From Pseudomonadota bacterium (GTDB lineage Bacteria > Pseudomonadota > Gammaproteobacteria > Burkholderiales > Rhodocyclaceae), in assembly GCA_018240785.1 (NCBI GenBank), contig JAFEFC010000030.1, positions 1-64,000 on the forward strand: a stretch of DNA of 64,000 nucleotides. The letters are read 5' to 3'. Position 1 is the stretch's first letter, and the number at the start of each line of letters is the position of its first letter. The position numbers were made by a program, and so were the translations under genes. This document shows, in pieces, positions 111 to 15,989 of this stretch. Under the pieces are notes generated by a model. The model made no database searches, was not told where the DNA came from, and was given only the letters and a program-made list of their open reading frames with translations.

Positions 111-1350
111 TTAATAATCCCTTTCATATCAGGGCATCAGTTCGAACATTCTCAGATCCAGATGACGCTCGATCTGGATACGTCTTAATCCCTTTCATAT
201 CAGGGCATCAGTTCGAACCACAAGGAAGCGGAATGCACAGGCTGATGTGCGCGTCTTAATCCCTTTCATATCAGGGCATCAGTTCGAACTCGTTGATCCT
301 GATGGAGCAGCGCGAAACGATGGGTCTTAATCCCTTTCATATCAGGGCATCAGTTCGAACACAACGCATGACGAAGAAACAAGGAAATTGATAGGTCTTA
401 ATCCCTTTCATATCAGGGCATCAGTTCGAACTGATCCGGCGCGTTCACGGACTCACCTTGTCCGAGTCTTAATCCCTTTCATATCAGGGCATCAGTTCGA
501 ACCCTCCGCAGTCGCTGAAGCGGAAGTGATCGAGCGTCTTAATCCCTTTCATATCAGGGCATCAGTTCGAACCTCCGCACAGTGGAGTCGCTTTGTTGAG
601 CAAGTGACGTCTTAATCCCTTTCATATCAGGGCATCAGTTCGAACCTGATCTGTCTGCTGCTTGCTCCGAGCAAGCGCTGTCTTAATCCCTTTCATATCA
701 GGGCATCAGTTCGAACGCGGGGAGGGTGGTGCACCCGCCGGTGGGCTGCTGTCTTAATCCCTTTCATATCAGGGCATCAGTTCGAACACGTCGCACGGCA
801 ATGGATCGAACCCCATTGAACGTCTTAATCCCTTTCATATCAGGGCATCAGTTCGAACGACAGAGCTCCACGCTCTTGGTGCAGCGCAGAGGTCTTAATC
901 CCTTTCATATCAGGGCATCAGTTCGAACCCACGTCTGCAGCAGAAGCGGTCAAGGCGTGGCGTCTTAATCCCTTTCATATCAGGGCATCAGTTCGAACAA
1001 GCTGGTTTGGTAGGCTATTTTATTCTAAGGAGTCTTAATCCCTTTCATATCAGGGCATCAGTTCGAACCAAAGCTAAAAAGCTGATGGCTTCCATCATCG
1101 GGTCTTAATCCCTTTCATATCAGGGCATCAGTTCGAACTGCCATTCCCCGCATTGTGCAGTACGCAGTCGACGTCTTAATCCCTTTCATATCAGGGCATC
1201 AGTTCGAACAAAACTATCTGCAATGGGTAGAGTTCTGCGCTGTCTTAATCCCTTTCATATCAGGGCATCAGTTCGAACGGGCACGGTGCGCTTCGAGCAC
1301 ATGCACGACCACAGTCTTAATCCCTTTCATATCAGGGCATCAGTTCGAAC
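111..1350 (-). CRISPR. CRISPR array, 18 repeats of 37 bp, 17 spacers
   Basis: Eighteen 37-bp repeats start at 111, 182, 253, 324, 395, 466, 536, 609, 680, 751, 822, 892, 962, 1032, 1102, 1173, 1242 and 1314, separated by 17 unique spacers of 32-36 bp. All repeats look identical except the first, whose first four + strand bases are largely altered. Read on the minus strand, each repeat has a CCCT/AGGG stem with an 8-base loop followed by the eight bases ATTAAGAC. This is the layout expected for Cas6 cutting at the base of a hairpin to leave an 8-nt 5' handle. The decayed repeat at 111 marks the old end, so the leader lies to the right, next to the cas genes, and transcription runs leftward with them. 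Spacer targets cannot be told from the sequence alone. Confidence 0.99.
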
Positions 1351-1470: not shown

Positions 1471-1800
1471 TCATCGGCCCGCGGCCTGCAGCAGCTTCTG
1501 CAGGGACGGCGATGTGTTGGACAGCACGAAGGTTTCACGCGGCAGGCTGCCGCGGCCGATGGTGTCGATGGAAAGCTGCTCGGGCAACTGGTAGGCGCGG
1601 ACATCGTCCGATTTCGGGTCGATGCGCGTTTCGATGTCGGCCATCAGACGGCCCATCTGCGCTGCGCTGCCCTCGAAGTGGAACACCGAGTACTGCACCG
1701 GCGTGGCCTGTTTCACCAGGAAGCGGTGTAGCCGGATCAGCCGCTTCGGGTCGGTGATGTCGTAGGTGACGAGCCAGCCGCGCGGGGCGTTCAGTGCCAT
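1471..1800 (-). CDS. cas2: CRISPR-associated endonuclease Cas2 (second copy, cas2b)
   Basis: This 109-residue protein has the canonical Cas2 ferredoxin-like N-terminus, WLVTYDITDPKRLIRLHRFL, with the conserved Asp in YDITD. Cas2 is the dimeric core of the spacer-acquisition complex that bridges two Cas1 dimers. The start at 1800 overlaps the end of the preceding Cas1-like gene by 10 bp, so the two are probably translationally coupled. It is the last gene before the array. It is more typical of Cas2 than the copy at 3588-3872, and the two share little sequence. Which Cas2 works with which Cas1 cannot be decided here. Confidence 0.93.
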   Translation of the reverse strand: MALNAPRGWLVTYDITDPKRLIRLHRFLVKQATPVQYSVFHFEGSAAQMGRLMADIETRIDPKSDDVRAYQLPEQLSIDTIGRGSLPRETFVLSNTSPSLQKLLQAAGR

Positions 1801-2594
1801 GCGTCGATCTCCCGCGCAAGGTGGCGCTTGAGGTCGCCCAGGTGCAACAGCAGGCGGGCTTCGCGCTGATGGGCCCAGGTTTCGAACAGTCGGGCGATGA
1901 TCACATCCCGGTCGGCGCTGGCGGGCAGGGTGCCGCAATCGAGATTCAGTTCCGCCCATAGCAAGGTCGCAAGCTGGGCAGCGAGTTCGAACGGCGTGGC
2001 ATCGAAGCCCCAGTAGCAGGCTTGCACACCTTCGCGGTGCAGCCGATCGACGGCCAGCGCGTGGCACCATCCTTCGCCTTCTGCCGCGAAGGCGAGCGGA
2101 TGGACGCCGTTATAGACGTACTCGCGCTTGAGTTCCTCGAAGGCGACGGCGGCCAGGCCGTGGCCGCACTCGGCGGCGCGTCTGGCGCAGGTGGTGAGCG
2201 TTTCCAGCCGGCGGCGGGTGAGCCAGTTGGCGAAGCGCCTGGGCCAGTCGGGCAACTCAAGGTAGGTGTCGATCAGCGTCGACAAGGGAAACGGTTGCGG
2301 ATGGCAGCTTTGCGTGCTGCCGAGCGCATGGCCGTAGCCATCGAGCCAGGTGATCGGCACGCCTTCGCTCAGGCAGAGCGCGAGTGCGGTGCCCGACCAG
2401 GTGGCGTTGCGGTTGCAGATCACGCGCGCGATGCGGGCCAGCGGAAAGCGCTGCGGCGGCATGCCGTTGCGGCGCAGGATCAGGTGGTCCGACCCGGCAT
2501 CGATCTGCGCGGCAACCGCACTGAACAGATAAAGCGGTTTGCGCGCAGGGGTGGCGATGGTGGCGGTGCGGGCGCGGCTGGCGAGCGTGGGCAT
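1791..2594 (-). CDS. Cas1-like protein lacking catalytic His and Asp (cas1b)
   Basis: This 267-residue protein starts 2 bp after the stop of the canonical cas1. Residues 20-92 follow the Cas1 N-terminal beta domain (LYLFS..., SEGVPITWLDGYGHALG). The C-terminal half aligns by eye with the Cas1 catalytic domain near CYWGFDATPFELAAQLATLL (about 193-212). There the canonical GF-x-H motif reads GFDAT, with Asp198 where His is expected, and the metal-binding Asp of the DL-x-E motif is replaced (Gln207). No G-x-E-G motif for the catalytic Glu is visible. I infer a Cas1 paralogue without nuclease or integrase activity, perhaps a structural partner of Cas1. The reading frame is intact, which argues against a pseudogene. 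It could instead be a fast-evolving but active Cas1 variant. Confidence 0.72.
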   Translation of the reverse strand: MPTLASRARTATIATPARKPLYLFSAVAAQIDAGSDHLILRRNGMPPQRFPLARIARVICNRNATWSGTALALCLSEGVPITWLDGYGHALGSTQSCHPQPFPLSTLIDTYLELPDWPRRFANWLTRRRLETLTTCARRAAECGHGLAAVAFEELKREYVYNGVHPLAFAAEGEGWCHALAVDRLHREGVQACYWGFDATPFELAAQLATLLWAELNLDCGTLPASADRDVIIARLFETWAHQREARLLLHLGDLKRHLAREIDAWH

Positions 2595-2596
2595 GG

Positions 2597-3583
2597 TCAG
2601 AACACCTCGTCGTCTTCGAAGGTTTCGAGCCAGGGTTCGCCTTCTGCGCGCAGGCGCCGGGCCAGTTGTGCGCACCGCTGGCGCAGCCAGCGGCGGGGGA
2701 GCGGGGCGAAGCGTTCCCAGCCGGCATAGAAGTGGCCACGACCGGCCTTGCCGAGCAGGCAGGCGCCCTTGTCGGTGCTGAAGTGCTCCGGGCGAAGCGG
2801 GCCGCTGCTGAACTGCTGCCACACCCATTCGTCGGCGATCGGGCGCAGGGGCTCGATCAGGTCGCAGGCGAGCGATTCGCGGCCGAAGGCGGGGCGGTGG
2901 TAGAAGCCGAGCAGCGGGTCGAGCCCGGCGGCATGGGCGGCGCGCACGGCGTCGAAATGCAGCAGCGTGTACGCGAGCGACAGGCAGGCGTTGACCGGGT
3001 CGCGCGGCGGCCGGCGGTTGCGCCCGGTGAAGTCCAGTTCCGGCGCAAACAGCGCGGTGTAGCCGTGGAAGTAGGCGCGCGCCGCGCTGCCCTCGAGCCC
3101 GCGCAGGCGGGGGCAGTCGGCGTGGTGTTGGTCGGTGGCCTGGCGCAGCGCGGCGTCGATGCCCTTGCGGGCGTCGAACAGCGGCTTGCGCGCGTCGGGC
3201 CGGCGGGACTCGGCCTGCGTCAGCAGCCGGTGCTGGCGCCGCAGCTTGGCGGTGACGAGGTCGCGCGCCCAGGCATTGCAGAAGTCGTGGTCCATCGTGC
3301 GCCGGGCCTGGGCGAGACGCACGGCGGCGTCGTTGTGTGGGGGGCCGAGCACGATGGCGACCTGGCGGCCGGCGCGCGGGCTCAGCAGCAGGGTGGCGGC
3401 GCCCGCTTCGGCGAGCTTGAGCAGCACGCTGGTGTCGAGCCGGGTGCGGGCGCCCTGGATGACGACGCGCTCGATCAGCCGCAGCGGCACGGTCTGGCTA
3501 CGGGTGCCGTTTTCGTACAGGGCGAGGGCGCCATCGGCGAAGCGGACTTCAAGATCGGCGCGGTCGAGCAGCAGCGTGGCCAT
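2597..3583 (-). CDS. cas1: CRISPR-associated endonuclease Cas1 (canonical copy)
   Basis: This 328-residue Cas1 integrates new spacers into the array together with Cas2. The catalytic set is complete: Glu164 in RGLEGSAARAYF, His229 in GFYHRPAFGRESL, and Asp241/Glu244 in ACDLIEPLRP. The N-terminal beta domain runs to about residue 80. The ATG at 3583 lies 4 bp after the stop of cas2a, and a second Cas1-like gene follows after 2 bp, giving the order cas2a-cas1a-cas1b-cas2b. Length and motifs are ordinary for the family. Confidence 0.96.
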   Translation of the reverse strand: MATLLLDRADLEVRFADGALALYENGTRSQTVPLRLIERVVIQGARTRLDTSVLLKLAEAGAATLLLSPRAGRQVAIVLGPPHNDAAVRLAQARRTMDHDFCNAWARDLVTAKLRRQHRLLTQAESRRPDARKPLFDARKGIDAALRQATDQHHADCPRLRGLEGSAARAYFHGYTALFAPELDFTGRNRRPPRDPVNACLSLAYTLLHFDAVRAAHAAGLDPLLGFYHRPAFGRESLACDLIEPLRPIADEWVWQQFSSGPLRPEHFSTDKGACLLGKAGRGHFYAGWERFAPLPRRWLRQRCAQLARRLRAEGEPWLETFEDDEVF

Positions 3584-3587
3584 GATT

Positions 3588-3872
3588 TCAGCCCACGTAG
3601 AAGTAGTCGGGGTCGGCCGGCGTCGCCGCCACGCCCAGCGCGTAGGTGCGGGCGCTCGGATTCAGCCGCAGCAGGAAGAAGCGGTCCTTGTCCTCGTCGA
3701 GCAGCAGCGCCATGTCGTGCAGCAGCTCGAAGCGTTCCGCGCGGGTGAGGAAAACTTCGTGCACCGATTTCTGCCCGCCGGTGGTGTAGCCGCGGACCAG
3801 CGCGAGCGCCGCGATCAGCCGGCGCGGGTGGGCGACGTCGTAGGCGGCCAGGTAGAAATCGCGGTTGGACAT
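3588..3872 (-). CDS. cas2: CRISPR-associated Cas2 (first copy, cas2a)
   Basis: This is a 94-residue Cas2-family protein. Its N-terminus, DFYLAAYDVAHPRRLIAAL, matches the Cas2 beta1-alpha1 pattern with an Asp in YDV, followed by GGQKSVHEVFL, the usual second-strand region. It starts at ATG 3872 (MSNRDF), with a second in-frame ATG 9 bp upstream. It stands first in the adaptation block, 4 bp before cas1. It differs clearly from the second Cas2 at 1471-1800, so the two look like separate lineages and not a recent duplication. Confidence 0.88.
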   Translation of the reverse strand: MSNRDFYLAAYDVAHPRRLIAALALVRGYTTGGQKSVHEVFLTRAERFELLHDMALLLDEDKDRFFLLRLNPSARTYALGVAATPADPDYFYVG

Positions 3873-3963: not shown

Positions 3964-4902
3964 TCAGGCCGCGTGTAGCGTGTAACAACCCATGCCCATC
4001 GTCGCGTTCTTGCCCACGTGCAGCCATTGCCCCAGCCGCAGCCAGGGCAACAGCGGGGCAAGGTCGCCGTGCAAGGTCCAGTCGCCGATCGCGCCGCCGA
4101 GCGTCATCTCCTGTTGCTGGCGGCTCGAGTAGCGCGACCAGTCCTGCCAGCGCAAGGCGGGCCGGTGGTCGAGGCTTTCGGCATGGCGAACCAGCGTCGG
4201 GGCATCGGCGACGAGGCCGGGGCGGTCGGCATGGAATTCGGCGAGCAGGGTGGTGCGGCGCAGCAGGTCGGCCACCAGCTTGCGCGGCGTCAGCGCCTGC
4301 GGTCGCACCGGATGGCCCTGATGCTGCAGGCGCAGCGGGGTGTGCACGCGCAGGCGGATCGACGAGTCGGCAATGACCGGCGCCGTGTGCTCGAACCGTG
4401 CATCGTGGAGTGCGATCGCGGCGTCGCCGGTCTGCCACACGGACACGAAGCTGCTTTCTTCGTCGCCCGCCTGCCATTCGATCGACTCGAGCGTCCCCCG
4501 CGCCCGCTCCTTGCCAAGCCCGCCTTCGACGGCGCGCTGCAGCGCGAAGCTGATCAGCGGCAACTGGTCGACCGCGCGGCCCACGAGGACGATGCAGAAC
4601 TGCAGCGTTTCTCCCGCATCGATGAAGCGCGTGCCGAACGGCGGCGGTTCGATGACGTAAGGGTTGGGCACGTGGCTGAAGTTCTGCATGGCGTGCGCAG
4701 CCGGCGCCGGGGCTTCGAAGATCGCCGGGTAGGGGCAGGTGGCGCGCAGCGGGCAGCCGTCGCAGGTGCTGGCGCCGGTCATGCACGACACGCGGCGCAG
4801 CGCGGCGCCGAACTGGCCGCGCAGCAGCGAGCCGGCGTAGTCGGGCAGGCGCAGGGGGGCGGCCATGCGGAAGGTGAAGCGATAGCGGGCGAGGGGGAGC
4901 AT
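3964..4902 (-). CDS. cas6: CRISPR pre-crRNA processing endoribonuclease Cas6
   Basis: This 312-residue RAMP-fold ribonuclease should cut the array transcript within each repeat to release crRNAs for the Csm complex. The C-terminus holds the glycine-rich loop GKNATMGMG that marks Cas6 proteins. Near residues 40-60 there is a cysteine cluster (CMTGASTCDGCPLRATC), as found in a subgroup of Cas6 proteins of type III systems. The repeat hairpin plus 8-nt handle fits this enzyme. It follows the Card1-type gene by 30 bp and is separated from cas2a by 91 bp. Confidence 0.92.
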   Translation of the reverse strand: MLPLARYRFTFRMAAPLRLPDYAGSLLRGQFGAALRRVSCMTGASTCDGCPLRATCPYPAIFEAPAPAAHAMQNFSHVPNPYVIEPPPFGTRFIDAGETLQFCIVLVGRAVDQLPLISFALQRAVEGGLGKERARGTLESIEWQAGDEESSFVSVWQTGDAAIALHDARFEHTAPVIADSSIRLRVHTPLRLQHQGHPVRPQALTPRKLVADLLRRTTLLAEFHADRPGLVADAPTLVRHAESLDHRPALRWQDWSRYSSRQQQEMTLGGAIGDWTLHGDLAPLLPWLRLGQWLHVGKNATMGMGCYTLHAA

Positions 4903-4932: not shown

Positions 4933-6060
4933 TCAGCTCGAGACCCAGCGCAGCAGATGCTCGTCCAGGCGTGCCAATTGGTCGGCGCAAACAACCTGAA
5001 GGCTCAAGGCCTTTGCGAGCTTGAGTTCCGGCTCATTGAGTTTGCGAAAGCTCGTCAACATGCCGCGCGAGCCAAGGCCACCGACGCGGCGGCAGTTCTC
5101 GCTGAGCTTGAAAAGCGTGTCGTTGGCCTTGGTGCTGCCAGCGCGATCCATGCGGGCGGTTTTGCATTCAATGACGAAAAGTCGATTGCGTGTCATGAAC
5201 GCTACGTCGAGTTCGTTGCGCACGCCGTCCGGGTCTTCCACGACGAGGTTGGATGCCTTGTCCCGTATGTCGAGGCGCGCCTGCATTGCATTGAGCGTCT
5301 GGAACACGTAATGCTCCAGCCACCCTCCCTTGCAGAAGAATCGTGCCGCTTCATCGGCAAACTCGAGCTTGTCCGAGTTCAGGGTCAGCACTCCTGCCTC
5401 CTCGAAGTGGCGGATCAGGGCTTCCAGTGAGCGACTGTCCAACTGGCGGTCATCAAGACGGAGCTGCAGTGTGTTTCGGTCTTCCGCCGTCTGTGCGATG
5501 TAGTTGAGTTCGCCCAGCGTCCTTTCAAAGGAGCGCGCATTTCGTACAAGCGTGGCCTGCAGCGCCTGATAGCTTGGCGGATTGGCGGGATGCTGTTCTG
5601 CGGAAATGTTGAAACCGTAACTTTGCAGGTAGTGCTTGAGGCGTAGCGAGGAGGTGAGTTTCTGGTTGTTCCCGGAACGATCGAGCCAGATGACCTCATC
5701 AGTGTCTACGTCGACGTAGAAGGAACGGCAGCCGGCGGTGTTGGTGACGTTTTGCGCGGCAAGGGCCATCAACTTGGTGCCACCGGTGAGATTGAAGGCT
5801 ATCTCCTGGGCCGGATATTCGGAGGCGATGCCGAGAATGATCTCCTCGATTTGCGCAAGGTCGTGTTCATTGGGTAGCTCGACCTGATGAACCGTGATGC
5901 CTGACTCCCGGAGCACACTCGAAAGTGCGATCCCCTGGCGCCGCATCTTTGCGCTGATCAGGAGCACGACCCGTTCGGGTTTGATGGCGGGGTCCAGGGT
6001 AGGCAGGAGGTTTGGCGCGGCTTGTGCTGATACGAGGAGGACGTGAACTTTCGGGGTCAT
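4933..6060 (-). CDS. Card1/Can2-type CARF nuclease (DUF1887 family)
   Basis: This 375-residue protein has an N-terminal CARF domain (about 1-140; ligand-loop motif LTGGTK, residues 91-96), a middle helical region, and a C-terminal PD-(D/E)xK nuclease domain. The nuclease residues visible are Glu249 in GGWLEHYV, Asp285 in NELDV and the pair Glu298/Lys300 in VIECK. Family knowledge: Card1/Can2 proteins bind cyclic tetra-adenylate made by Cas10 and then nick or degrade DNA and/or RNA without sequence specificity. This gene likely fills the Csm6 effector role, since no HEPN-type Csm6 is present. The start overlaps the csx16 stop by 4 bp (ATGA), implying coupled translation. By eye its sequence is less GC-rich than neighbouring cas6 and cas1, suggesting a separate origin. 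Confidence 0.9.
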   Translation of the reverse strand: MTPKVHVLLVSAQAAPNLLPTLDPAIKPERVVLLISAKMRRQGIALSSVLRESGITVHQVELPNEHDLAQIEEIILGIASEYPAQEIAFNLTGGTKLMALAAQNVTNTAGCRSFYVDVDTDEVIWLDRSGNNQKLTSSLRLKHYLQSYGFNISAEQHPANPPSYQALQATLVRNARSFERTLGELNYIAQTAEDRNTLQLRLDDRQLDSRSLEALIRHFEEAGVLTLNSDKLEFADEAARFFCKGGWLEHYVFQTLNAMQARLDIRDKASNLVVEDPDGVRNELDVAFMTRNRLFVIECKTARMDRAGSTKANDTLFKLSENCRRVGGLGSRGMLTSFRKLNEPELKLAKALSLQVVCADQLARLDEHLLRWVSS

Positions 6061-6350
6061 GCTTCAGATTCCACAATGAAAGCCTCCAGCCGTGCCCCGT
6101 AGGCATCAAGCTCGTCGGCGGACAATTCGCGGCCTCGTGCTTCGGCGGGCAGGTCGAGTGTCAGATTGAGATAGCGAGCACCGCGCTTGCACACCCTTGC
6201 GGCAAGGTTGACCGGCAGGATGCCGATCACGGTATCTCCCGGCGCAATTGTCTCCGGATCGAGGTGGGCGATCTGGCGATCGACGATCAATCCTTTGCGT
6301 CGAGCCCACTCGACGGCGCCAAGGTGCCGGGTGACGAACCAGGTGGTCAT
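6057..6350 (-). CDS. csx16: CRISPR-associated protein Csx16, candidate ring nuclease
   Basis: This 97-residue protein begins MTTWFVTRHLGAVEWARRKG and contains GDTVIGILPVNLAARVC, the pattern of the Csx16 (VVA1548) family. Csx16 occurs almost only in type III loci. Recent comparative work on type III systems, as I recall it, proposes that Csx16 degrades cyclic oligoadenylate. The ATG at 6350 gives the family-typical N-terminus; an in-frame upstream ATG would add 12 residues. The 4-bp overlap with the Card1-type gene links a candidate off-switch to the effector it would control. Confidence 0.85.
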   Translation of the reverse strand: MTTWFVTRHLGAVEWARRKGLIVDRQIAHLDPETIAPGDTVIGILPVNLAARVCKRGARYLNLTLDLPAEARGRELSADELDAYGARLEAFIVESEA

Positions 6351-6382
6351 CGCGCGGCGCTCGCGGTTCGAACATCCGTCAT

Positions 6383-6796
6383 TCAATTTTCATCCGGACG
6401 AATGCAGCAGATGTCGAGCTGCAGCGCGTCGGCAACGGCGAGCCATGCGCGGTCGGCGGTGTGCACCTGTGCCTTCAGCCGCTCTGCGGCCGCGAGGCAG
6501 AGCCGGTCGCCGAGGCTGAGGCCGTGCGCCCGCGTCACCGGCCGCATCCAGCCCGCAGCCGCACCGTCCTCGGCGGAGGTGTCGATGACCGTGTAGCCGA
6601 TGCTCGCGACGATATCGCGCACGGCGTCGGGGGCGACGCCGTGGTCGAGCGCCTTGGCGATGATCTCCGCATGGATGGCGGCCGGCACAAGGCAGGGCGC
6701 GCCAGCCTGCAGCAGCGCATCGATGGCTTCCGCGCCGGGTTCGGCATTGAGCCACGCCAGCACCGCCGAAGCGTCGAGGATGACGGGTGCGCTCAT
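6383..6796 (-). CDS. PIN-domain toxin (VapC-like)
   Basis: This 137-residue PIN-fold ribonuclease keeps the acidic residues of the family: Asp8 in VILDASAVLAWL, Glu in HAEIIAKAL, and Asp in LSLGDRLCLAAA and HTADRAW. VapC toxins cut tRNA or rRNA when released from the antitoxin. Its start overlaps the stop of the AbrB-type antitoxin gene by 4 bp. The pair sits inside the CRISPR gene string, in the same direction and 32 bp before csx16. That is unusual and may mean co-transcription with it. Confidence 0.9.
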   Translation of the reverse strand: MSAPVILDASAVLAWLNAEPGAEAIDALLQAGAPCLVPAAIHAEIIAKALDHGVAPDAVRDIVASIGYTVIDTSAEDGAAAGWMRPVTRAHGLSLGDRLCLAAAERLKAQVHTADRAWLAVADALQLDICCIRPDEN

Positions 6797-7038
6797 TCGC
6801 GCGTGGCCTCGGCGTGTCGCTCGGCGATCAGTTCGTCGGCCGCCGAAGGTGCATCGGCCGGCACGTAGCGACGAAAGAGCGCCTGCGCTCGCCGCAGTTG
6901 CGCCTGCCGGCTGGTGATGCGGGCCTCGCCGTCGAGCAGTTCGAACAGGACCGTGTCGCCTTCCTTGAGTCCGAGCGATTGGCGGATCTCAGCGGGGATG
7001 ACAACTCGGCCACCGTCTGACATTTTCATCTGGTGCAT
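6793..7038 (-). CDS. AbrB/MazE-type antitoxin
   Basis: This 81-residue protein has an N-terminal SpoVT/AbrB swapped-hairpin DNA-binding domain (GGRVVIPAEIRQSLGLKEGDTVLFEL, shown here from about residue 9) and a C-terminal tail expected to bind the PIN toxin. Such antitoxins normally repress their own operon. GGAG lies about 8 bp before the ATG. In the 171-bp gap upstream, a TATACT-like -10 reads leftward at 7070-7075, so the pair may have its own promoter inside the CRISPR locus. Confidence 0.88.
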   Translation of the reverse strand: MHQMKMSDGGRVVIPAEIRQSLGLKEGDTVLFELLDGEARITSRQAQLRRAQALFRRYVPADAPSAADELIAERHAEATRE

Positions 7039-7209
7039 GAAGAAATCTCCATTCTCGGACTCAAGTGTCAGTATAGGTTGGGCACGGGGCTGAATCGATG
7101 AAGGGAGGTGCCTTCCTTGTGGCCCGTACAGCCTGTCGAATGCAGGTTCGCTTGCGAGTCAGGAGCCGCATCGGCACGCCATCGAAGCGGTCGGCTTTGA
7201 ACGAGATGC

Positions 7210-8193
<984 letters not shown>

Positions 8194-8197
8194 GTAG

Positions 8198-9853
8198 TCA
8201 TTCGCCACGAAGTGCCGCGAGCTGCAGTTTCTTGCGGGCGTCCTTCCATTCGTCCTTGCGGTCGAGTTTGTCGACCACCTTGGGCAACCATTCGGTCAAC
8301 ATCTCGGCTAGTTGCATACGGTCCTCAGTGCTCCAGGTGCTGTCGGCGCGGAGAGCCGCCTTGCTCAGGCGTAGGGCTTCCGCGTACAGGCCGCTACCCG
8401 GGTTGAGCGGGTCCTTGCGCGCGTTGTCGGCTTTGCTCCGGCAACTGCGGGCGAACTCATCGATCAACTTCCCTTCGGCGGAGAGCAGCGCGCGGGCTGC
8501 TTCGAGCGCTGCCTGTGCAGCCGCCTCGGCTGCCGCCCGCGCTTGCCGTTCAGCTTCAAGCTGGTGCTGGCGCAGGGTTTCGGCTGCTGCGCGCTGCTGG
8601 GCCGAAGCGAGTTGGGCGCGGATTTCGGCCATCTGCGTCCGGGGTTGGGCAGCGCACCAGTGCTGTAGCGACTCGATCGGCACGCTGTTGGCGGCCTCGA
8701 CGATGAGCCAGCCAAAGGGAACCATGCCGGAGCGTTCGCCGTCGCGCTCGGCGGCCAGCCATACCGTCTTGGCGCCCTCCGGCGACCAGTCGGGTGGTTG
8801 CCCACGGCCCTTCATGATCTTTATCGAGCGGACACCATCCAGCGTGACGCTCTCCGCACCGGAATGACGGCCGATGCGCAGTAGCATCACGTGGCCACTG
8901 TCGAGATCGGGCTGGAGGTCGGCCAGGAGTTTCTTCAGTTCGGATAGCCACTGCGGAGCAGCAAGCCGACGGCTTTCGAGGACGTCCAGCAGTGCTCGCA
9001 TGCGGCGCAGGTAGTAGCGGTTGCAGGCGGTCGCCAGGGCGGCGAATGCAGGGATGCGATGTCCGGGGCCGGGTGCGCGGCTGCCGGCGCCAATGCCGGG
9101 CAGCGTGCTGATGCGGATTTCGCCGCGCAATGCTCGATGTTGCCCCCCAATGATTGCCTCGCGCCGGGTTGCAGGCCCTTTGGCTTCAACAAGCCGGCCG
9201 TCCTTGTCATAGACCTCGCGCTTCTTGTGGTTAGTGGCGAAAACGACCTTGCTGTCGAGTTCGGTTGAGCAGGTGTCGGCAACCTGCAGTAGGCGGAACG
9301 GGTCGGCATGGAAGCCGGCACGCGAATCGAGGAGGCGCTTCTCGATATCCTGGGCGTTGCGATCGCCGGGGGATTTCCCTTGGCCGTCATTGAGCTGATC
9401 CAGCCACGCGGTGCGAATGGCGCCCTTGATGCTGGAGCCTGGGATGTAGGGCGCGCCGGTGTGCGGGTGATGTGCGGTGCGCTCGATCTCAAGCTGATTG
9501 GCTACGCGGCGCCCGCCGTTTTCGTGTTGTGCGACCTGGCCGATGCGCCGGCCGTACTGCTCGGCAACGCCGGCTGCAACAGCCACTGCGCCGTGGGCGA
9601 CCCCGGCAAAGCGCTCCTTGCGGGCATGAAAGAACTTCTGCAGGTCCCGAATCGCTTCATCGCCGCGGCGATTGACCGCCGAGATCAGTGCGTCCCGATC
9701 TGCCTTGGACAAGGGGACTCGCGCCGGGTCGAAGTGGTACAGGACGCCGTCGTCGATGACATAGTTGGTCGGTTCGAAATCCTGCCCGCAGCCGATGTGG
9801 ACAGGCGTCAGCGGCGTGATTGCGAGAGCCACGGTATCGAAGAAAGCGCTCAT
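8198..9853 (-). CDS. csm5: Type III-A effector subunit Csm5 with long C-terminal extension
   Basis: Csm5 is the RAMP protein that caps the 3' end of the crRNA in the Csm complex. The N-terminus (ITPLTPVHIGCGQDF) and the glycine-rich loop PYIPGSSIKGAIRTAW are typical. At 551 residues it is longer than the usual 350-400. From about residue 395 there is an Ala/Gln/Glu-rich coiled coil (QLASAQQRAAAETLRQHQLE) and then a helical tail (to KLQLAALRGE). The ATG at 9853 overlaps csm4 by 4 bp. The extension may be normal for proteobacterial Csm5, or it may be a docking segment. Confidence 0.88.
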   Translation of the reverse strand: MSAFFDTVALAITPLTPVHIGCGQDFEPTNYVIDDGVLYHFDPARVPLSKADRDALISAVNRRGDEAIRDLQKFFHARKERFAGVAHGAVAVAAGVAEQYGRRIGQVAQHENGGRRVANQLEIERTAHHPHTGAPYIPGSSIKGAIRTAWLDQLNDGQGKSPGDRNAQDIEKRLLDSRAGFHADPFRLLQVADTCSTELDSKVVFATNHKKREVYDKDGRLVEAKGPATRREAIIGGQHRALRGEIRISTLPGIGAGSRAPGPGHRIPAFAALATACNRYYLRRMRALLDVLESRRLAAPQWLSELKKLLADLQPDLDSGHVMLLRIGRHSGAESVTLDGVRSIKIMKGRGQPPDWSPEGAKTVWLAAERDGERSGMVPFGWLIVEAANSVPIESLQHWCAAQPRTQMAEIRAQLASAQQRAAAETLRQHQLEAERQARAAAEAAAQAALEAARALLSAEGKLIDEFARSCRSKADNARKDPLNPGSGLYAEALRLSKAALRADSTWSTEDRMQLAEMLTEWLPKVVDKLDRKDEWKDARKKLQLAALRGE

Positions 9854-10779
9854 GTGCGCAGCTCCGCATTTAGAGGCACCAGCGGCGCATAGCCCTGGTG
9901 CACGGTGGCGGGAATCGCTGCCGAAATTGGCGAGCGCGACCCGCCAAGGCCTGTGCCGTGAAAGTCGGGAACCGGACCCGTCCGGAAGGTGAGAAAGGCT
10001 GCGGTCCGCAAACCAAGCACCGGGCGCTTGAATGGGCGACCCCCGACTGCTGCGATGTTGCCGTGGCGACCGAATCGGGTCTGAGGCTGGTAGTAGCAGG
10101 CGTTGGCGTCCAGAGCCTGGGGTGCAGGCGCGCAAGGGGCGAGCGTGAGCGCGTGGCGACCTGCCGCAGCGGGCCATTGCCAGGCGACGATATTGCTGAC
10201 CGAGAACTTGCCGAGGCCGGTGCTGGCGTCGCGACCGAAGCCGCTCATGCCCACGTCTGAAAGCACCTGGCCGAGGTCGGCACTGCTCAGGCGCGACGAG
10301 TCAAGGCAGCAATACACGTGCAGGCCGCCCTCGCTGCATAGCTGCAACCGCTCGACCTGCCGCGGCGCGAAGGGGCCGGTGCCGGTCGTGCCGGTGAGCC
10401 GGTTGATGGTGTTCTGGGTCAGCACCATGTGCTCGGTTGTCTTCAATGCGGCAGCACGAGTCAGCCACTCGGCGAGCGGAAGCGCCGCGTCGATCTGGGG
10501 GAGCCAGACCCTAGTCTTCGCTGTCTTGCGTTGAGCAGGGTCGCTATCGAGACCGAGCAGAAAGTCGGGCAATTGCGGTCGCGGCAGCCAGCCGGACGGG
10601 AAGGCGTCGGAGACGACCAGAAACGGCCTGCCCTCGGTGTAGCCATCGAGCAGGCTCGTCAGCCTGGCCTCGCCGAAGCGCTCCCGGATTGCCCAGCACA
10701 GTTGCCCGAACAGGGTGTCGCCGGCGAGCGGGGTGCCAAAGGCCGAGAGCGGCTGCAGGGTGACTTGGTAGTTGTCCAT
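9850..10779 (-). CDS. csm4: Type III-A effector subunit Csm4
   Basis: This 309-residue RAMP protein should hold the 5' handle of the crRNA and contact Cas10. The N-terminus SAFGTPLAGDTLFGQLCWAIRERFG is the Csm4 signature, and a glycine-rich segment MSGFGRDASTGLGKF follows near residue 185-200. It starts at ATG 10779 (MDNYQV), 7 bp after csm3, and ends in a 4-bp overlap with csm5, all in one operon. Confidence 0.92.
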   Translation of the reverse strand: MDNYQVTLQPLSAFGTPLAGDTLFGQLCWAIRERFGEARLTSLLDGYTEGRPFLVVSDAFPSGWLPRPQLPDFLLGLDSDPAQRKTAKTRVWLPQIDAALPLAEWLTRAAALKTTEHMVLTQNTINRLTGTTGTGPFAPRQVERLQLCSEGGLHVYCCLDSSRLSSADLGQVLSDVGMSGFGRDASTGLGKFSVSNIVAWQWPAAAGRHALTLAPCAPAPQALDANACYYQPQTRFGRHGNIAAVGGRPFKRPVLGLRTAAFLTFRTGPVPDFHGTGLGGSRSPISAAIPATVHQGYAPLVPLNAELRT

Positions 10780-10786
10780 CGCTTTT

Positions 10787-11503
10787 TCAGGCAGCGCGAG
10801 CGGCAAAGGGATCGAGAGCGTCGAATTCGGCCTGGACGTCGGCGCCGTCCAGCTTCAGCTCGCGGAGCTTGATCTTGCCGTAACCGCGCGATCCGGAGCC
10901 GCCGAGGCTGTCGAGCTCGAGCAGTCGCAGGCCTGCGAACAAGGCCTTGCGCAATGCGGCGCCGTCGCCATCGATGTCCAGCAGCTTGATCGAGAGGCGG
11001 AAGTCGAAACGCGAGCCGGCTGGGACCCGTTCGGTCTGGCGTGGGTGCTCGGCCACGCCCTTGATGCGGTCGATCCGGTTCTCGGTCTTGACCTCGGTCA
11101 GCAGCAGATTGTCACCTTCGATCTGCCTGACCCAGTCGGCCTGAAGCGCAGCATCCCAGAAGGCCAGTCGGGTCGGGCCAAGATCGCGCGCCTGTTCGTC
11201 GCTAAGTTGGTCGCCACCGCCTACGCCGAAAAGCTGCAGGATGGGGCGTACCTCAGGGTGCCTGGCCGACAGGTCGCCGATGCCGAGCGGCTCGGACTTC
11301 ACCGCACCGCTGCGCCACTCCAGCAGGCTGCGTACCTTGCCTTTAAGGCTGGAACCGGGAATGTAGGGCTGGTTGTTGATCGGGTTGCGAATGACCTGGT
11401 TGTCGACGCCGCCGATGCGGATCTCGCCTTCGCTGGCGCCGATACGCAAACCCGAGAGCAGTTCGAGCGTGCCTTCCAGGGTCTGGATCTTGATGAGCTG
11501 CAT
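10787..11503 (-). CDS. csm3: Type III-A effector subunit Csm3 (target RNA cleavage)
   Basis: Csm3 (238 residues) forms the backbone of the Csm complex and cleaves target RNA at 6-nt intervals. The family motif GASEGEIRIGGVDNQVIRNP is followed by PYIPGSSLKGKVRSLLE. Asp34 of GGVDN corresponds to the catalytic Asp of characterised Csm3 proteins, so RNA slicing is probably intact. A glycine-rich loop GGSGSRGYGKIKL lies near residue 205. The start is ATG 11503 (MQLIKI), with AAGGGAA upstream. Confidence 0.94.
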   Translation of the reverse strand: MQLIKIQTLEGTLELLSGLRIGASEGEIRIGGVDNQVIRNPINNQPYIPGSSLKGKVRSLLEWRSGAVKSEPLGIGDLSARHPEVRPILQLFGVGGGDQLSDEQARDLGPTRLAFWDAALQADWVRQIEGDNLLLTEVKTENRIDRIKGVAEHPRQTERVPAGSRFDFRLSIKLLDIDGDGAALRKALFAGLRLLELDSLGGSGSRGYGKIKLRELKLDGADVQAEFDALDPFAARAA

Positions 11504-11534
11504 GTCATGTTCCCTTGTATGTGATGTGTAGCGC

Positions 11535-12029
11535 TCAGTCCTGCGGGCGATGGACCTTGTAGAAGGCCATGAACGCCTCCATGAACAGCTTGGCTTGCGC
11601 CAGGGATCTGTGGTCGGAGGCTTGATCGACGACGTGGCGCAGGAGCCGGTCGAAATTCGCGTCGACCTTCTTCCGTCCCATCGCGTAGGCCACCTTTGCC
11701 TTAAGCATCTGGATGTAGGGCGCTTGGGCATGAAAGCGTTCTTCGCTGTTGCCGACCTTGCCCTGCAACATGACGAGTTCGTCGTAGAAGCGGCGAAGCT
11801 GAGTGCCCTTGTTGGCGTCACGCATGCTTGTGTCGGCAATGCTGCGTGCCGCTGCTTCCGCGACATCCGAATACAGCGTCGGTGCAATCTGATCGCCAAA
11901 GCGAATCCGGCTGGTGTCGATGTTCGGCTCATCGTCGCGCCTAGCGCGCTCGTCGCTGCTGCGATAACCGGGATTGGATGAATTTGGACGGGGCGCGGAT
12001 GTGCCGCGGCCGGGGATATGGTTTGCCAT
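11535..12029 (-). CDS. csm2: Type III-A effector small subunit Csm2
   Basis: This 164-residue protein has a low-complexity N-terminal tail (about 1-50) followed by the helical Csm2 core. The core includes KGTQLRRFYDELVMLQGKVG and a C-terminal helix ending FMAFYKVHRPQD. Csm2 lines the inner face of the complex along the crRNA-target duplex. It lies 14 bp after cas10 and 31 bp before csm3. Confidence 0.9.
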   Translation of the reverse strand: MANHIPGRGTSAPRPNSSNPGYRSSDERARRDDEPNIDTSRIRFGDQIAPTLYSDVAEAAARSIADTSMRDANKGTQLRRFYDELVMLQGKVGNSEERFHAQAPYIQMLKAKVAYAMGRKKVDANFDRLLRHVVDQASDHRSLAQAKLFMEAFMAFYKVHRPQD

Positions 12030-12043
12030 GCGGGTGGACTCCT

Positions 12044-14740
12044 TCAGCGATCCCTGAACTGGTAAAGATGGTTGAACAGAACGATGCGGTAGGCCGAGCC
12101 GAGCGTTTCGATCCCGGTACCGCCGATGTCCTGGATGATGCGGGTGGTGTGGCGCCGCCGTTCCTCTTCACTCAGGCCGCGGCATCGGTCGACGACGAAA
12201 CGGCGGGTGCGGTAGGCCAGGCGCGAGCGCCACATCGCGGCTTCGGCCTTGCCCTTCTTCTCATCCCTGCGCATGTCGATGAACTGCTGCAAGCCATAGA
12301 CGAACCCGGTCGACAGGTCCATCTCGCTGCGCAGGGCCTGGAGGCGTGCCAGTGCAGCCTCGAGTTTCGGCCATGTCTGCCAGGCCACGGTTTCGCCAAA
12401 GCAGGTGACTGCGTCCTTGCCATCATGTTGCTTGGCCGCCGACAGCGCGTCTTCGGCCAGTTCAGCGATGCTGAAGATGGGGGCGCCGGGTTTCTGCGTG
12501 GCGATGCCGGCCGAGAAGTGGATCTCGGTATTTCCTGCGACGTAGACCCGGAAATCGTCGCGCAGCCGTGAGGCGAGACGCTGCACACTGCGCCATGGGC
12601 CAATCAGAAAGAAATCGTCTCCACCTGCGAAGACCGTGTAGACGTTGGGGAAGTCGCGCGCGAGCAGCCAGGGCAGATAGACGGCGAAGAAGCCATTCAC
12701 CTGGCGAGACAATGCGGCCATCTTGGCAAAGGTCGGCTGCTTCAGGCCGGTGCGGAACAGTTCGCCCAGATTGTCGATGTCGCCCTTCAGCACGCCCAGC
12801 GAGGCAACGCCCTGCCAGCGCGCGCTGTCTGTGTCGGAAGGCTGGCGGTCTTCGCAGGCGAGGAGATCGAGTGTCTTCAGGTCGCCGACGTCGGGCATCG
12901 GCTCTTCGCCGAGCAGGCCCGCATAACGGTCGCGCAGTGGGCCGACATCGTCCGACCCCATGGTGGGCACATAACCACTGATGAAGCGGCGAGCAAAACC
13001 ATGCCACAACGGAGCGCCACCCTCGGCGTCGTCCGGCTTGGGCAGACTGAAGTCCCAGCAGCGGCGCAGGTCGCCATTGCCTGCAAGTTCACCAAAACGG
13101 CCGGTGGCGTCGGCATCAGCGGTAAATGCGACAACGTGGCCGAAAAGATCGGTTTCGAGCAGGCACAGGTTGCGATGTTCGCGAAGCGCGTCGCGCGCAT
13201 CATTTCGCAGGATGAGGATGCGGTCGAGTTTGACCAGGGACTCGCCGATCGCAATCTGGTCGCGCGAAAGCGCACACGAGGCCACATCGCCGATCTTCCG
13301 GTCGGCGGGGAGGCGGCCGTTATAGGCGCAGGGGCCGAGCGCGAAATCGGCGGCGCTGAACACCGCGCCGCCGAGCGCGCACAAGTCCAGGCGCTGGTGT
13401 TTGGCGATGTCGAGCTGCTGGTGCAAGCGCGTCATCAGCTTGCTGAATGGTGTGCTGTCGTTGCGCTCGCCATGTCGGCGCAGGAAATCGGCGCAACTGG
13501 CCGGTGTCCATGCCAGTCCGACGCCAGCCTGACCGAAAGTGTGTGTGGAAAACCAGCTATCGAGCTCGGCGCGCAAGCGTTGCAGGCGCTCGCAAACGTC
13601 AACCGTATTGGGTGCGACGATCATGAACTTGCCGGCGGCATTGATGATCTGGCTCGTCGGCGGCAGGCCGAGTTCGTCGAGGACACGCAGCGCTGCCAAT
13701 TCAGTGAAGATCGACACCTGGAACGAGCGGCCGCGCAACAGCTTTGCCGCGTGTTTTCGCGATTCGCCACCCGTTGCGAATATGAAGTCCTGGATGCCGA
13801 AGAAATCCCCCTGAATCAACAGGAATTTCTGTTCGTCGAAGTCGGATCGGGTGCGCAGGGCCTGTGTCGCCTCCTTGCCGGTTCTTGCCGTGGCTTCATG
13901 CCAGCGCCAAAGCGCGACGGCCAGTGACGCTGCGGCACGGGAGTGGTCGTACAGGGAGACCTCAGGGCGGACACCGAAGGCAGTAGCCGCAGGAATGGTG
14001 TGTGTGCACGCAAGCCACAGACTGTCGAAGTGATCGAGCCACAGCGGCCAGTTGTGGCGGTGGCTGGCGGGAATCTGGCTCAGGCCGGCGATGAACTGAT
14101 CCCACAGAGAGCCGTATTCAGCCTGTGCGGCTTGGTCGTCGCGCACTTCGCACTGTGCGGCGGGCCTTGGGAAGATGCTGCGCGGCGATAGCATCCGTAG
14201 CGGATAGCGCTGGACGAGGGCCGCGTCACTCGGCTGCGTGTCGCTCAGCCGGATCTGCTCGAACAGGGTCAGTTGACGCGAGGTGTAGTGATTGAGCCCG
14301 TTGGCGCGCTTCTCTGCGGCTTGGTTGTATTGCTCGAACTCCTCGCGTTCGAAGCCGGAGGCGACACGATCGGCTGTGGCAATGATCCATTGCAGGAAGG
14401 TGTCTGGCTTGTGGTGGGCTGCAGCCGCATTCACCAGGGAGTCCGTTGCTTCACCCGAGTCTGAGTCTCCTGCGTATTTGCGGCCGGTAAATGGAGAGAC
14501 GTCTCCCCGGACAGTGTCGGGCAGATGGGCTTCGATTGCGCCGAAGGCAAGTGCTGTGTGGGCTGCATGCTGGTGGCTGAACCAGCGTCCCTCGATGTGG
14601 AACGGGCAATAGAGTGTCAAATGCGCATCCACCCGCGGATCGCAATCAAAGACCTTTGCGCGTTCCGCAAACTTGCCCAGATCGTGCAGATAGGCGGCGA
14701 GCCCCACTCGCGTGGATGCGTCCATCAAGGGGTGCGGCAT
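12044..14740 (-). CDS. cas10: Type III-A signature protein Cas10/Csm1
   Basis: This 898-residue protein is the large subunit of the Csm complex. An N-terminal HD nuclease domain is present (AYLHDLGKFAERA, His19/Asp20). The C-terminal palm domain has the cyclase motif FAGGDDFF (GGDD at 706-709), so both single-strand DNase and cyclic oligoadenylate synthesis should be active. I chose ATG 14740 (MPHPLMDAS) because homologues start close to the HD motif; in-frame ATGs at 14761 and further upstream exist. A 103-bp gap before it has a weak TTAGAC-17-TATGCC promoter candidate and is less GC-rich than the coding DNA. Confidence 0.96.
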   Translation of the reverse strand: MPHPLMDASTRVGLAAYLHDLGKFAERAKVFDCDPRVDAHLTLYCPFHIEGRWFSHQHAAHTALAFGAIEAHLPDTVRGDVSPFTGRKYAGDSDSGEATDSLVNAAAAHHKPDTFLQWIIATADRVASGFEREEFEQYNQAAEKRANGLNHYTSRQLTLFEQIRLSDTQPSDAALVQRYPLRMLSPRSIFPRPAAQCEVRDDQAAQAEYGSLWDQFIAGLSQIPASHRHNWPLWLDHFDSLWLACTHTIPAATAFGVRPEVSLYDHSRAAASLAVALWRWHEATARTGKEATQALRTRSDFDEQKFLLIQGDFFGIQDFIFATGGESRKHAAKLLRGRSFQVSIFTELAALRVLDELGLPPTSQIINAAGKFMIVAPNTVDVCERLQRLRAELDSWFSTHTFGQAGVGLAWTPASCADFLRRHGERNDSTPFSKLMTRLHQQLDIAKHQRLDLCALGGAVFSAADFALGPCAYNGRLPADRKIGDVASCALSRDQIAIGESLVKLDRILILRNDARDALREHRNLCLLETDLFGHVVAFTADADATGRFGELAGNGDLRRCWDFSLPKPDDAEGGAPLWHGFARRFISGYVPTMGSDDVGPLRDRYAGLLGEEPMPDVGDLKTLDLLACEDRQPSDTDSARWQGVASLGVLKGDIDNLGELFRTGLKQPTFAKMAALSRQVNGFFAVYLPWLLARDFPNVYTVFAGGDDFFLIGPWRSVQRLASRLRDDFRVYVAGNTEIHFSAGIATQKPGAPIFSIAELAEDALSAAKQHDGKDAVTCFGETVAWQTWPKLEAALARLQALRSEMDLSTGFVYGLQQFIDMRRDEKKGKAEAAMWRSRLAYRTRRFVVDRCRGLSEEERRRHTTRIIQDIGGTGIETLGSAYRIVLFNHLYQFRDR

Positions 14741-14843
14741 TCGATTCTCTTGAGAAAACATTGTTCGCCCATTCTCGCATTTGATTTTCATTGGCATATT
14801 CGCATTGTCTGCGAAGTCTAACCGTGTGGAATGCCGCGCCGCG

Positions 14844-15989
14844 CTATCGCAAGCTTGCCGACGCCCGTGGCCCGAGCAGTTGCACCGCATCCGCATCCAG
14901 CGGCAGTCGGTACCGATGCGGCTTTCTGCCGCCGTCGTCGATCTGGTAGGGGCCGGCAGCGGGGCCGAGGTGCTTGCTGAGCGCGCTGCGCAGTTTCGAC
15001 AGGCGCGACGAGAAGTAGCTGCCGTCCATGCCGCGGAGCAAGGCGTGTTCGGTGGACGACAGGTCGCCGAGCGGGCCGGCGATGAGTCGTAGTTCGCGCA
15101 GGTAACGTTCCGCCCAGGCCGCATCGCCGACCTCCTTGATCGGGGCGGGCACGGCGGGCTCATTGGTCAACGCGCGGCGCGCGAACACCGCGAGGAGGGC
15201 GAGCTCGGCCGGCGGCAATCTGAAGCAGCGACCGGCGGCGCGCACCGTGCGCGTGGCGAGGTCGATTTCCAGCCTGGCCGGGCCCAGGGTGGCGCGCGCG
15301 GCATCGACCGTCGCGTTGAAGCTCGCGCTGCCGTCGAGCAGATTGGTTGGCAGGCCGTGGCGCAGGCTCACGAAGGGTATCTCGGCCAGGCTGACCTTGG
15401 CCTGGCGGGCGTCGGCGAGCTTGTTACCGGCCGTGGCGATGACGTTTTCGTAGGGTGTCGGATAGAAGAAGTTGAGGCTGTTCTCGAACGGCTCCGAAAC
15501 CAGCACGTGCGAGAGCCGGTCCTGCGGACGCCCGAACAGCGACAACGCGTAGCCGAGGAAGAAGCCCATCGTCTTGCGCCCGCCGGCAATCGAGACATGC
15601 AGCGCAGATGTGGGGTCGGCGCTGAGTTCGCGCACCGTTTCGGTGATGAAGTCGGCGCACGACTGGTTGTCCTGCGGGCTGCGGATATCGGCCAGAGGCT
15701 GGCCGGCAGCATCGCGCAGCACGTGGATATGGTCCGCGTCGAAGCTGATCGGAGGCAGGCGGTAGTCGGCGCGGAGGCGGTGGAACCAGCCCGGCTCGTC
15801 GGACAGCAATGCGAGCCGCGCTCGCTCTGCGCCTTCAGCGGTGGTGATGAGGTGGATCTCGGTTGGGACGAAGGGCTCGTCGTTGCCAACTGCGAGCGCA
15901 TACAGCGTCTCGGTGACGATCTGCGGCGACAGGCCGGTAACCGCAAGCAGGATGCGGCGAGAGTGGGAGGCAGGCGGGAGGGGTTTCAT
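14844..15989 (-). CDS. NE0113/Crn1-type CARF protein with C-terminal winged helix
   Basis: This 381-residue protein has an N-terminal CARF-type domain of the NE0113 family, related to the Sso2081 (Crn1) ring nuclease (TGLSPQIVTETLYAL and SIAGGRKTMGFFLGYA). Ser21 and Lys139 match, by eye, the Ser and Lys used by Crn1 to cut cyclic tetra-adenylate. From about residue 238 the sequence follows an OmpR-type winged helix: LEIDLATRTVRAAGRCFRLP then ELALLAVFARR, and later SSRLSKLRSALSKHLG with a final HRYRLP strand. I infer a ring nuclease or a cOA-responsive transcription factor. It is the first gene of the locus, with a GCAAGCTTGC palindrome in its upstream region and another across its last codons. 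Confidence 0.85.
   Translation of the reverse strand: MKPLPPASHSRRILLAVTGLSPQIVTETLYALAVGNDEPFVPTEIHLITTAEGAERARLALLSDEPGWFHRLRADYRLPPISFDADHIHVLRDAAGQPLADIRSPQDNQSCADFITETVRELSADPTSALHVSIAGGRKTMGFFLGYALSLFGRPQDRLSHVLVSEPFENSLNFFYPTPYENVIATAGNKLADARQAKVSLAEIPFVSLRHGLPTNLLDGSASFNATVDAARATLGPARLEIDLATRTVRAAGRCFRLPPAELALLAVFARRALTNEPAVPAPIKEVGDAAWAERYLRELRLIAGPLGDLSSTEHALLRGMDGSYFSSRLSKLRSALSKHLGPAAGPYQIDDGGRKPHRYRLPLDADAVQLLGPRASASLR
14849..14858. promoter_or_regulatory. GCAAGCTTGC palindrome before cas10
   Basis: This 10-bp palindrome lies in the last codons of the CARF-winged-helix gene, about 110 bp upstream of the cas10 start. The same core is found upstream of the CARF gene and of cas2a. 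It could be an operator shared by the three blocks of the locus. The coding overlap means chance cannot be excluded for this copy taken alone. Confidence 0.45.

Follow-up and report, generated by a model that had tools for sequence, protein, structure and literature searches.

A degenerate second Cas1 paired with two Cas2 families at a type III-A CRISPR locus: a candidate heteromeric spacer integrase

The 64,000-nucleotide stretch analyzed here (the window; positions 1 to 64,000 of contig JAFEFC010000030.1, assembly GCA_018240785.1, from a member of the Rhodocyclaceae) carries on its minus strand, from 3872 to 1471, four coupled genes in the order cas2a-cas1a-cas1b-cas2b, flanked by a type III-A csm operon on one side and a CRISPR (clustered regularly interspaced short palindromic repeats) array of 18 repeats on the other. 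With moderate confidence, and on the basis of sequence comparison, we propose that they together encode a single heteromeric spacer integrase, with Cas1b as its dedicated noncatalytic protomer. This arrangement, which many related bacteria keep, suggests a division of labor within the usually symmetric integrase, with separate parts for doing the work and for supporting it. The first gene, cas2a (3588 to 3872; 94 amino acids, upstream Cas2 family; PF09827, E 6.9e-6), is separated by 4 bp from cas1a (2597 to 3583; 328 amino acids), which is followed after 2 bp by cas1b (1791 to 2594; 267 amino acids), a degenerate Cas1 without the catalytic Glu and His; cas1b overlaps by 10 bp the last gene, cas2b (1471 to 1800; 109 amino acids, downstream Cas2 family; PF09827, E 1.1e-14; TIGR01573 above its cut-off). 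These coordinates, gene order and spacings had been given in an earlier note on this DNA, and all proved exact on rechecking.

Cas1a is matched by Pfam PF01867 over 8 to 290 of its 328 residues (E 2.6e-67). Its Glu164, His229 and Asp241, which the earlier note had found in place, are invariant in all 81 aligned sequences, comprising the window and 80 loci. To collect these loci, one genome per bacterial or archaeal species was scanned with a Cas1a alignment, and the best 80 of at least 567 confirmed relatives were kept; because they are the nearest relatives of Cas1a, their composition is uninformative about Cas1 at large. In the protein alignments and counts, a locus with masked bases (L051) was left out, and the 65 rows for Cas1b are the window plus 64 loci.

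In Cas1b, Pfam recognizes the N-domain only (PF01867, residues 30 to 96, E 1.1e-6), the domain the earlier note had already assigned, and the same family matched all 65 Cas1b sequences. Deeper comparison extended the likeness: hhalign of the 65-row Cas1b profile against the 81-row Cas1a profile aligned 249 columns over the full length (probability 99.2, E 4.9e-19), and a shallow comparison with a 6-row Cas1a alignment gave a match in the N-domain only. An AlphaFold2 model built from the 65 sequences had a predicted local distance difference test score (pLDDT) of 92.3 and a predicted template modeling score (pTM) of 0.87. When this model was compared with the Protein Data Bank (PDB) by Foldseek, it gave 152 matches at E of 0.001 or below (best E 1.4e-9); among the 50 listed, all were Cas1, Cas1-Cas2 complexes or casposase, bar one "uncharacterized Aquifex protein." The Cas1 rows spanned 255 to 339 alignment columns with template modeling scores (TM-scores) up to 0.68 and root-mean-square deviations of 5 to 12 Å, and these values indicate that the domains of Cas1b are probably oriented differently. 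A profile search of PDB sequences with Cas1b found Cas1 through the N-domain (best E 2e-9), along with two rows for unrelated decarboxylases, both weak (E near 0.06). By this modeling, Cas1b has the Cas1 fold, an N-terminal beta-domain and a C-terminal helical domain, over its whole length. The earlier note had allowed that a model might reveal some other fold; the predicted fold is that of Cas1, and the idea that Cas1b is not a Cas1 was rejected on the Foldseek matches and the full-length profile alignment.

The active site is another matter. In the profile alignment, the position of Glu164 falls in a gap, His229 is opposite Asp198 and Asp241 is opposite Gln207; the RRPPxDPVN loop of Cas1a also lies opposite gaps. 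The residues opposite His229 and Asp241 agree with the earlier note, which had reported both His and the metal-binding Asp as missing from Cas1b. Aligning the homologs, a check it had suggested, confirmed the first part as conserved and the second as not: of the 65 sequences, 46 have Asp in the Asp column, 7 have Glu and 2, the window among them, have Gln. Thus, the trait of the family is loss of Glu and His, not of Asp, and Gln207 is local to the window. The His column retains His in four sequences (L059, L113, L114 and L120), the last three of which look remnant-like by eye. No alternative conserved His site, which the earlier note had named among the things that would count against its reading, was seen in Cas1b among columns with a residue in 45 or more of the 65 rows; the best His column reached 20 of 65. 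Judged by the Glu, His and Asp metal site of an active integrase, Cas1b would not be one. An hmmalign placement of Cas1b on the Cas1a model left the three sites gapped in 63, 65 and 65 of 65 rows, and a single sequence (L076) had Glu at 164; it was judged unfit and not used. A Nitrospira Cas1b (L120, 10932 to 11705) carries His in the His column (GAIHRG) and Asp in the Asp column, matches the Cas1a model with 51 bits in the N-domain, and is possibly an intermediate.

A Cas1 without its catalytic Glu and His might simply be a dominant-negative regulator, competing for Cas1a or Cas2 and damping acquisition. Tight coupling to cas1a, with its 2-bp gap, could be read that way, but such coupling points rather to stoichiometric assembly, and we regard a regulator of this kind as very unlikely.

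The arrangement is a steady one. We judged how readily it could arise by chance from its conservation among loci rather than by shuffling. Of the 80 loci, 65 have Cas1b 3′ of cas1a. The spacing is at most 110 bases in 64 loci; in L080 it is 956 bases, and a 260-amino-acid open reading frame (ORF) of unknown kind stands there between cas1a (ending at 3827) and cas1b (starting at 4787). Within these 65, the L070 frame is cut by the contig end, and L051 is the locus with masked bases. Of the 15 loci without Cas1b, one (L085) stops at the contig edge and 14 read cas2a-cas1a-cas2b (L047, L068, L074, L086, L099, L104, L109 to L112, L116 to L118 and L121). Most host names are those of beta- or gammaproteobacteria; some are Nitrospira or Nitrospirales, and there is a single Acidobacteria bin. 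Added scans of 199 genomes from the family, 399 from the order and 398 from the phylum (E limits of 0.001, 0.001 and 1e-10, respectively) gave 15 loci besides the window that hold Cas1b by the models applied, with cas2a and cas1a upstream in all 15 and cas2b downstream in 14; the exception, L128, is a short locus, and Cas1b of L127 was matched as two separate pieces. The two sets overlap: the contigs of L007 and L008 equal those of L046 and L066 in length and are apparently identical with them. The other scan matches examined were ordinary Cas1 genes; a reverse transcriptase (RT)-Cas1 (L012) and a match to a 64-amino-acid frame (L011) were both outside that model run. A tblastn search of plasmids and phages with the Cas1b protein found no match.

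The two Cas2 proteins are equally regular partners. Both match PF09827, and in each the consensus at 80% or above contains YD, the motif typical of Cas2, with Asp in the first strand. Upstream and downstream proteins form separate families, with none of 156 rows mis-sorted and support of 0.999. The upstream Cas2 was found in 78 of the 80 loci, the exceptions being L052, with only 602 bases upstream, and L120; the downstream Cas2 was found in 76, and the four exceptions (L059, L070, L084 and L085) end within about 90 bases past the last gene or inside it. Both are kept in the 14 loci lacking Cas1b, so the pair of Cas2 genes is a more constant feature than Cas1b itself. The downstream model also matches Cas2 proteins beside ordinary cas1 genes, at about 42 to 80 bits, and the upstream model does so in three loci only, at 22 to 54 bits; cas2b therefore looks like the ordinary partner and cas2a like the extra one.

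Might Cas1b be just a duplicate decaying without function? It evolves quickly, with a mean distance of 1.40 compared with 0.72 for Cas1a, and its absence is scattered (14 of 80 loci). However, its frame is open at 65 of the 80 loci, the bins concerned bear the names of three phyla, and its predicted fold is confident, with the pLDDT value given above. Ratios of nonsynonymous to synonymous substitution rates (dN/dS, by YN00) were 0.08 to 0.20 for Cas1b (8 of 11 pairs computed) and 0.04 to 0.12 for Cas1a (9 of 11), with the caveat that several pairs had dS close to 1 or higher and that three pairs share L080, L094 and L100. Mean pairwise identity over the 65 paired sequences was 0.455 and 0.539 for the N- and C-terminal domains of Cas1a and 0.358 and 0.208 for those of Cas1b. 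The low dN/dS together with the domain identities indicates that Cas1b is maintained as a protein and that the N-domain is its more constrained half. A degenerate pseudogene was thus considered and set aside on conservation, model confidence and dN/dS, and we find a functionless duplicate highly improbable.

What, then, might a maintained but inactive Cas1 do? Known integrases offer a precedent. In the E. coli Cas1 dimer, according to the passages available to us, one Cas1 catalyzes and the other contacts Cas2 (PMC10011333). The type I-E Cas1-Cas2 complex thus resembles the present system in its Cas1 fold, its Cas2 and its one catalytic and one noncatalytic protomer per dimer; it differs in that its protomers come from one gene and its Cas2 dimer is symmetric, whereas here there are two genes for each. 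Asymmetric pairs recur in the Methanosarcina mazei casposase, whose dimers are described, in the part of the report seen, as juxtaposing N-terminal beta-strand domains in one catalytic and one noncatalytic monomer (PMC6977970). Cas1b matches a casposase structure (6opm) in Foldseek with E 4.1e-8. The casposase, unlike the four-gene module, is a single-protein tetramer, a transposon enzyme not known to work with a Cas2.

We propose that the adjoining type III-A array is served by one four-gene integrase in which Cas1a would provide catalysis and Cas1b would pair with it through the conserved N-terminal beta-domain. Cas1b would then stand in for the noncatalytic protomer of a standard Cas1 dimer; in E. 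coli, this is the chain in contact with Cas2 that keeps the complex together. The C-terminal active site of Cas1b, being unused, would have decayed while the fold was retained. A gene specialized for the noncatalytic position would keep its N-domain and drop its active site, which is what Cas1b has done; likewise, if constraint falls on the domain that forms the dimer, the N-domain of Cas1b should be more conserved than its C-domain, as it is. The presence of two Cas2 families suggests a Cas2a-Cas2b central dimer, and the likely complex would be (Cas1a-Cas1b)2 on that core. Hetero-dimerization, stoichiometry, the identity of the Cas2-contacting protomer and activity are all things we infer. 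A heteromeric integrase was the proposal of the earlier note as well; it is partly supported, by the Cas1 fold, the kept gene order with two Cas2 families and the purifying selection. The particular versions that note offered, with one site to hold the prespacer and one for chemistry, or with asymmetric recognition of the repeat, are conjectural, and spacers are of similar length whether or not Cas1b is present. A single-chain AlphaFold model of Cas1a-Cas1b, made from L048 by reading through the stop between the genes, reached a pTM of 0.47, with the Cas1a half poorly modeled and covered by 5 rows, and so speaks neither for nor against a dimer.

Partial distance correlations over 60 rows were 0.47 for Cas1a-Cas2a, 0.40 for Cas1a-Cas1b, 0.32 for Cas1b-Cas2b, 0.22 for Cas1a-Cas2b, 0.21 for Cas2a-Cas2b and 0.15 for Cas1b-Cas2a, with jackknife errors of 0.06 to 0.08 for the four Cas1-Cas2 pairs. 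Each Cas1 therefore follows the Cas2 encoded next to it more closely than the other Cas2. One can envision from these values, and from the adjacency of cas2a to cas1a and of cas1b to cas2b, that the halves are segregated, with a Cas1a homodimer at Cas2a and a Cas1b homodimer at Cas2b, one end catalytic and the other holding DNA. Spacer insertion requires two transesterifications, however, and an integrase with one inactive end would stop at half-site products unless Cas1a acted twice; the arrays are regular, and Cas2b is kept in loci with no Cas1b. We consider such segregation distinctly unlikely.

Several observations weigh against a mixed (Cas1a-Cas1b)2 integrase. The stronger correlation of each Cas1 with its neighboring Cas2 may reflect gene adjacency, and it also fits another stoichiometry. 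Cas1b is dispensable on an evolutionary time scale, as its absence from 14 of 80 loci indicates. On a quick Cas1a tree that absence is scattered, with eight state changes, four of them forced by well-supported branches, and Cas1a can presumably work without Cas1b; a clade of seven without Cas1b (Accumulibacter, Aggregatibacter and others) has support of 98. The outgroups of this tree are very long, and we claim neither its root nor the ancestral presence of Cas1b. In addition, L120, a Cas1b locus, has no recognizable upstream Cas2 within 10 kb upstream.

The arrays add a further point. The window array (111 to 1350, minus strand) has 18 repeats of 37 nt and spacers mostly of 33 to 34 nt; read on the minus strand, its repeat ends GGGATTAAGAC. 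Because degeneracy marks the outermost repeat, at 111, the leader end should face cas2b. A phage search with this array gave no match. Among the arrays listed for the window and the Cas1b loci, 36 of 37 have repeats of 36 to 38 nt that look alike by eye, the exception being L105, whose consensus is incomplete. This uniformity would suit a Cas1b that acts, as second protomer, as a specificity or substrate factor, reading leader, repeat or prespacer end, with a C-domain turned to a new DNA-binding role, and the type II-A noncatalytic Cas1 is indeed reported, in the portion of the source consulted, to contact repeat positions 28 to 29 (PMC6895254). Yet the arrays listed without Cas1b (n = 11) have repeats of 36 to 37 nt, save the incomplete call L086, and mean spacer length is about 32 to 35 nt with or without Cas1b (L086 and L105 left out); moreover, the C-domain is the least conserved part of the protein (mean identity 0.208). 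A specificity role of this kind seems to us unlikely. The similar means give no sign of an effect of Cas1b on spacer length, and repeats and spacer lengths that stay the same without it count, together with its scattered absence, against an indispensable role.

Degenerate Cas1 genes of this type are already catalogued. All 65 aligned Cas1b match the PADLOC-DB (2023) profile PDLC01185, "Cas1, diverged variant, second in the loci," the window with E 7.6e-121. That profile is the same family as Cas1b, in an entry that gives no function, partner, mechanism or two Cas2 families; what is new here is its regular association with two distinct Cas2 families and its interpretation as part of a hetero-integrase. 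The Gallibacterium anatis type III-A locus, in the passage of the 2013 genome paper that describes it, has csm genes, cas6, csx16 and cas2-cas1-cas2 (PMC3554606), so that two cas2 genes flank cas1, as in the 14 loci without Cas1b, and no cas1b is listed. An Antarctic Acidobacteriota contig, in a passage of a 2025 paper, reads cas2-cas1-cas1-RT-csm3-csm3-csm3-cas10 (PMC11742911); it shares a tandem cas1 pair in a type III locus and differs in having an RT and one listed cas2, and the passage is silent on Cas1 inactivity. In the accessible portions of the open-licence literature, we found no description of what a second, inactive Cas1 or paired Cas2 proteins do, and a term search of a type III adaptation review (PMC9048733) returned no mention of a second or additional cas1.

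The rest of the locus is that of a type III-A system, all on the minus strand, with Csm1 to Csm5 above NCBIfam cut-offs, Cas6 by Pfam and the array adjoining. Beyond cas2a lie cas6 (3964 to 4902; PF10040, E 1.9e-17) and a gene for a Card1-like CARF nuclease (4933 to 6060; PF09002, E 3.3e-27; PF23400, E 2.2e-13), followed by csm5 (8198 to 9868; TIGR01899, 44.1 bits, cut-off 38.3), csm4 (9850 to 10806; TIGR01903, 95.1 bits, cut-off 55), csm3 (10787 to 11521; TIGR02582, E 7.5e-61), csm2 (11535 to 12029; TIGR01870, 52.7 bits, cut-off 30.6), cas10/csm1 (12044 to 14752; TIGR02578, 658 bits, cut-off 170) and a gene for a CARF protein of the NE0113 family (14844 to 15989; TIGR02584, E 3.6e-73). The interval between the CARF nuclease and csm5 genes (6060 to 8208, minus strand) holds csx16 (TIGR02620, E 5.8e-31), a 137-amino-acid ORF with no NCBIfam match, an AbrB-like ORF (6796 to 7038) and a 332-amino-acid protein (7213 to 8208) with a weak Doc/Fic match below cut-off; there may be a toxin-antitoxin insert here within the csm operon. 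Elsewhere in the 4.7-Mb genome there are two more cas1 genes on other contigs, one (C33; L001) with a Cas4-like ORF, Cas2 and repeats, the other (C41; L002) with a helicase-like ORF, a Cas4-like ORF and Cas2; names other than Cas1 were assigned by eye.

If the four genes do form one integrase, a further consequence can be imagined. Since the two Cas1 proteins are paralogues, as are the two Cas2 proteins, the complex would lack twofold symmetry, and the two prespacer ends would sit in structurally distinct places. Such an enzyme could be a naturally polar CRISPR integrase, the orientation of insertion being fixed by its own build, without a protospacer adjacent motif or Cas4; we raise this as a speculation, doubtful but worth entertaining.

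How one protomer per dimer comes to work, and how the direction of insertion is fixed, are hard problems when all protomers share one gene. Separate genes for catalytic and noncatalytic Cas1 and for the two Cas2 halves, as there appear to be here, would allow each position to be mutated, tagged or deleted alone, and the natural loci with and without Cas1b would serve as matched comparisons.

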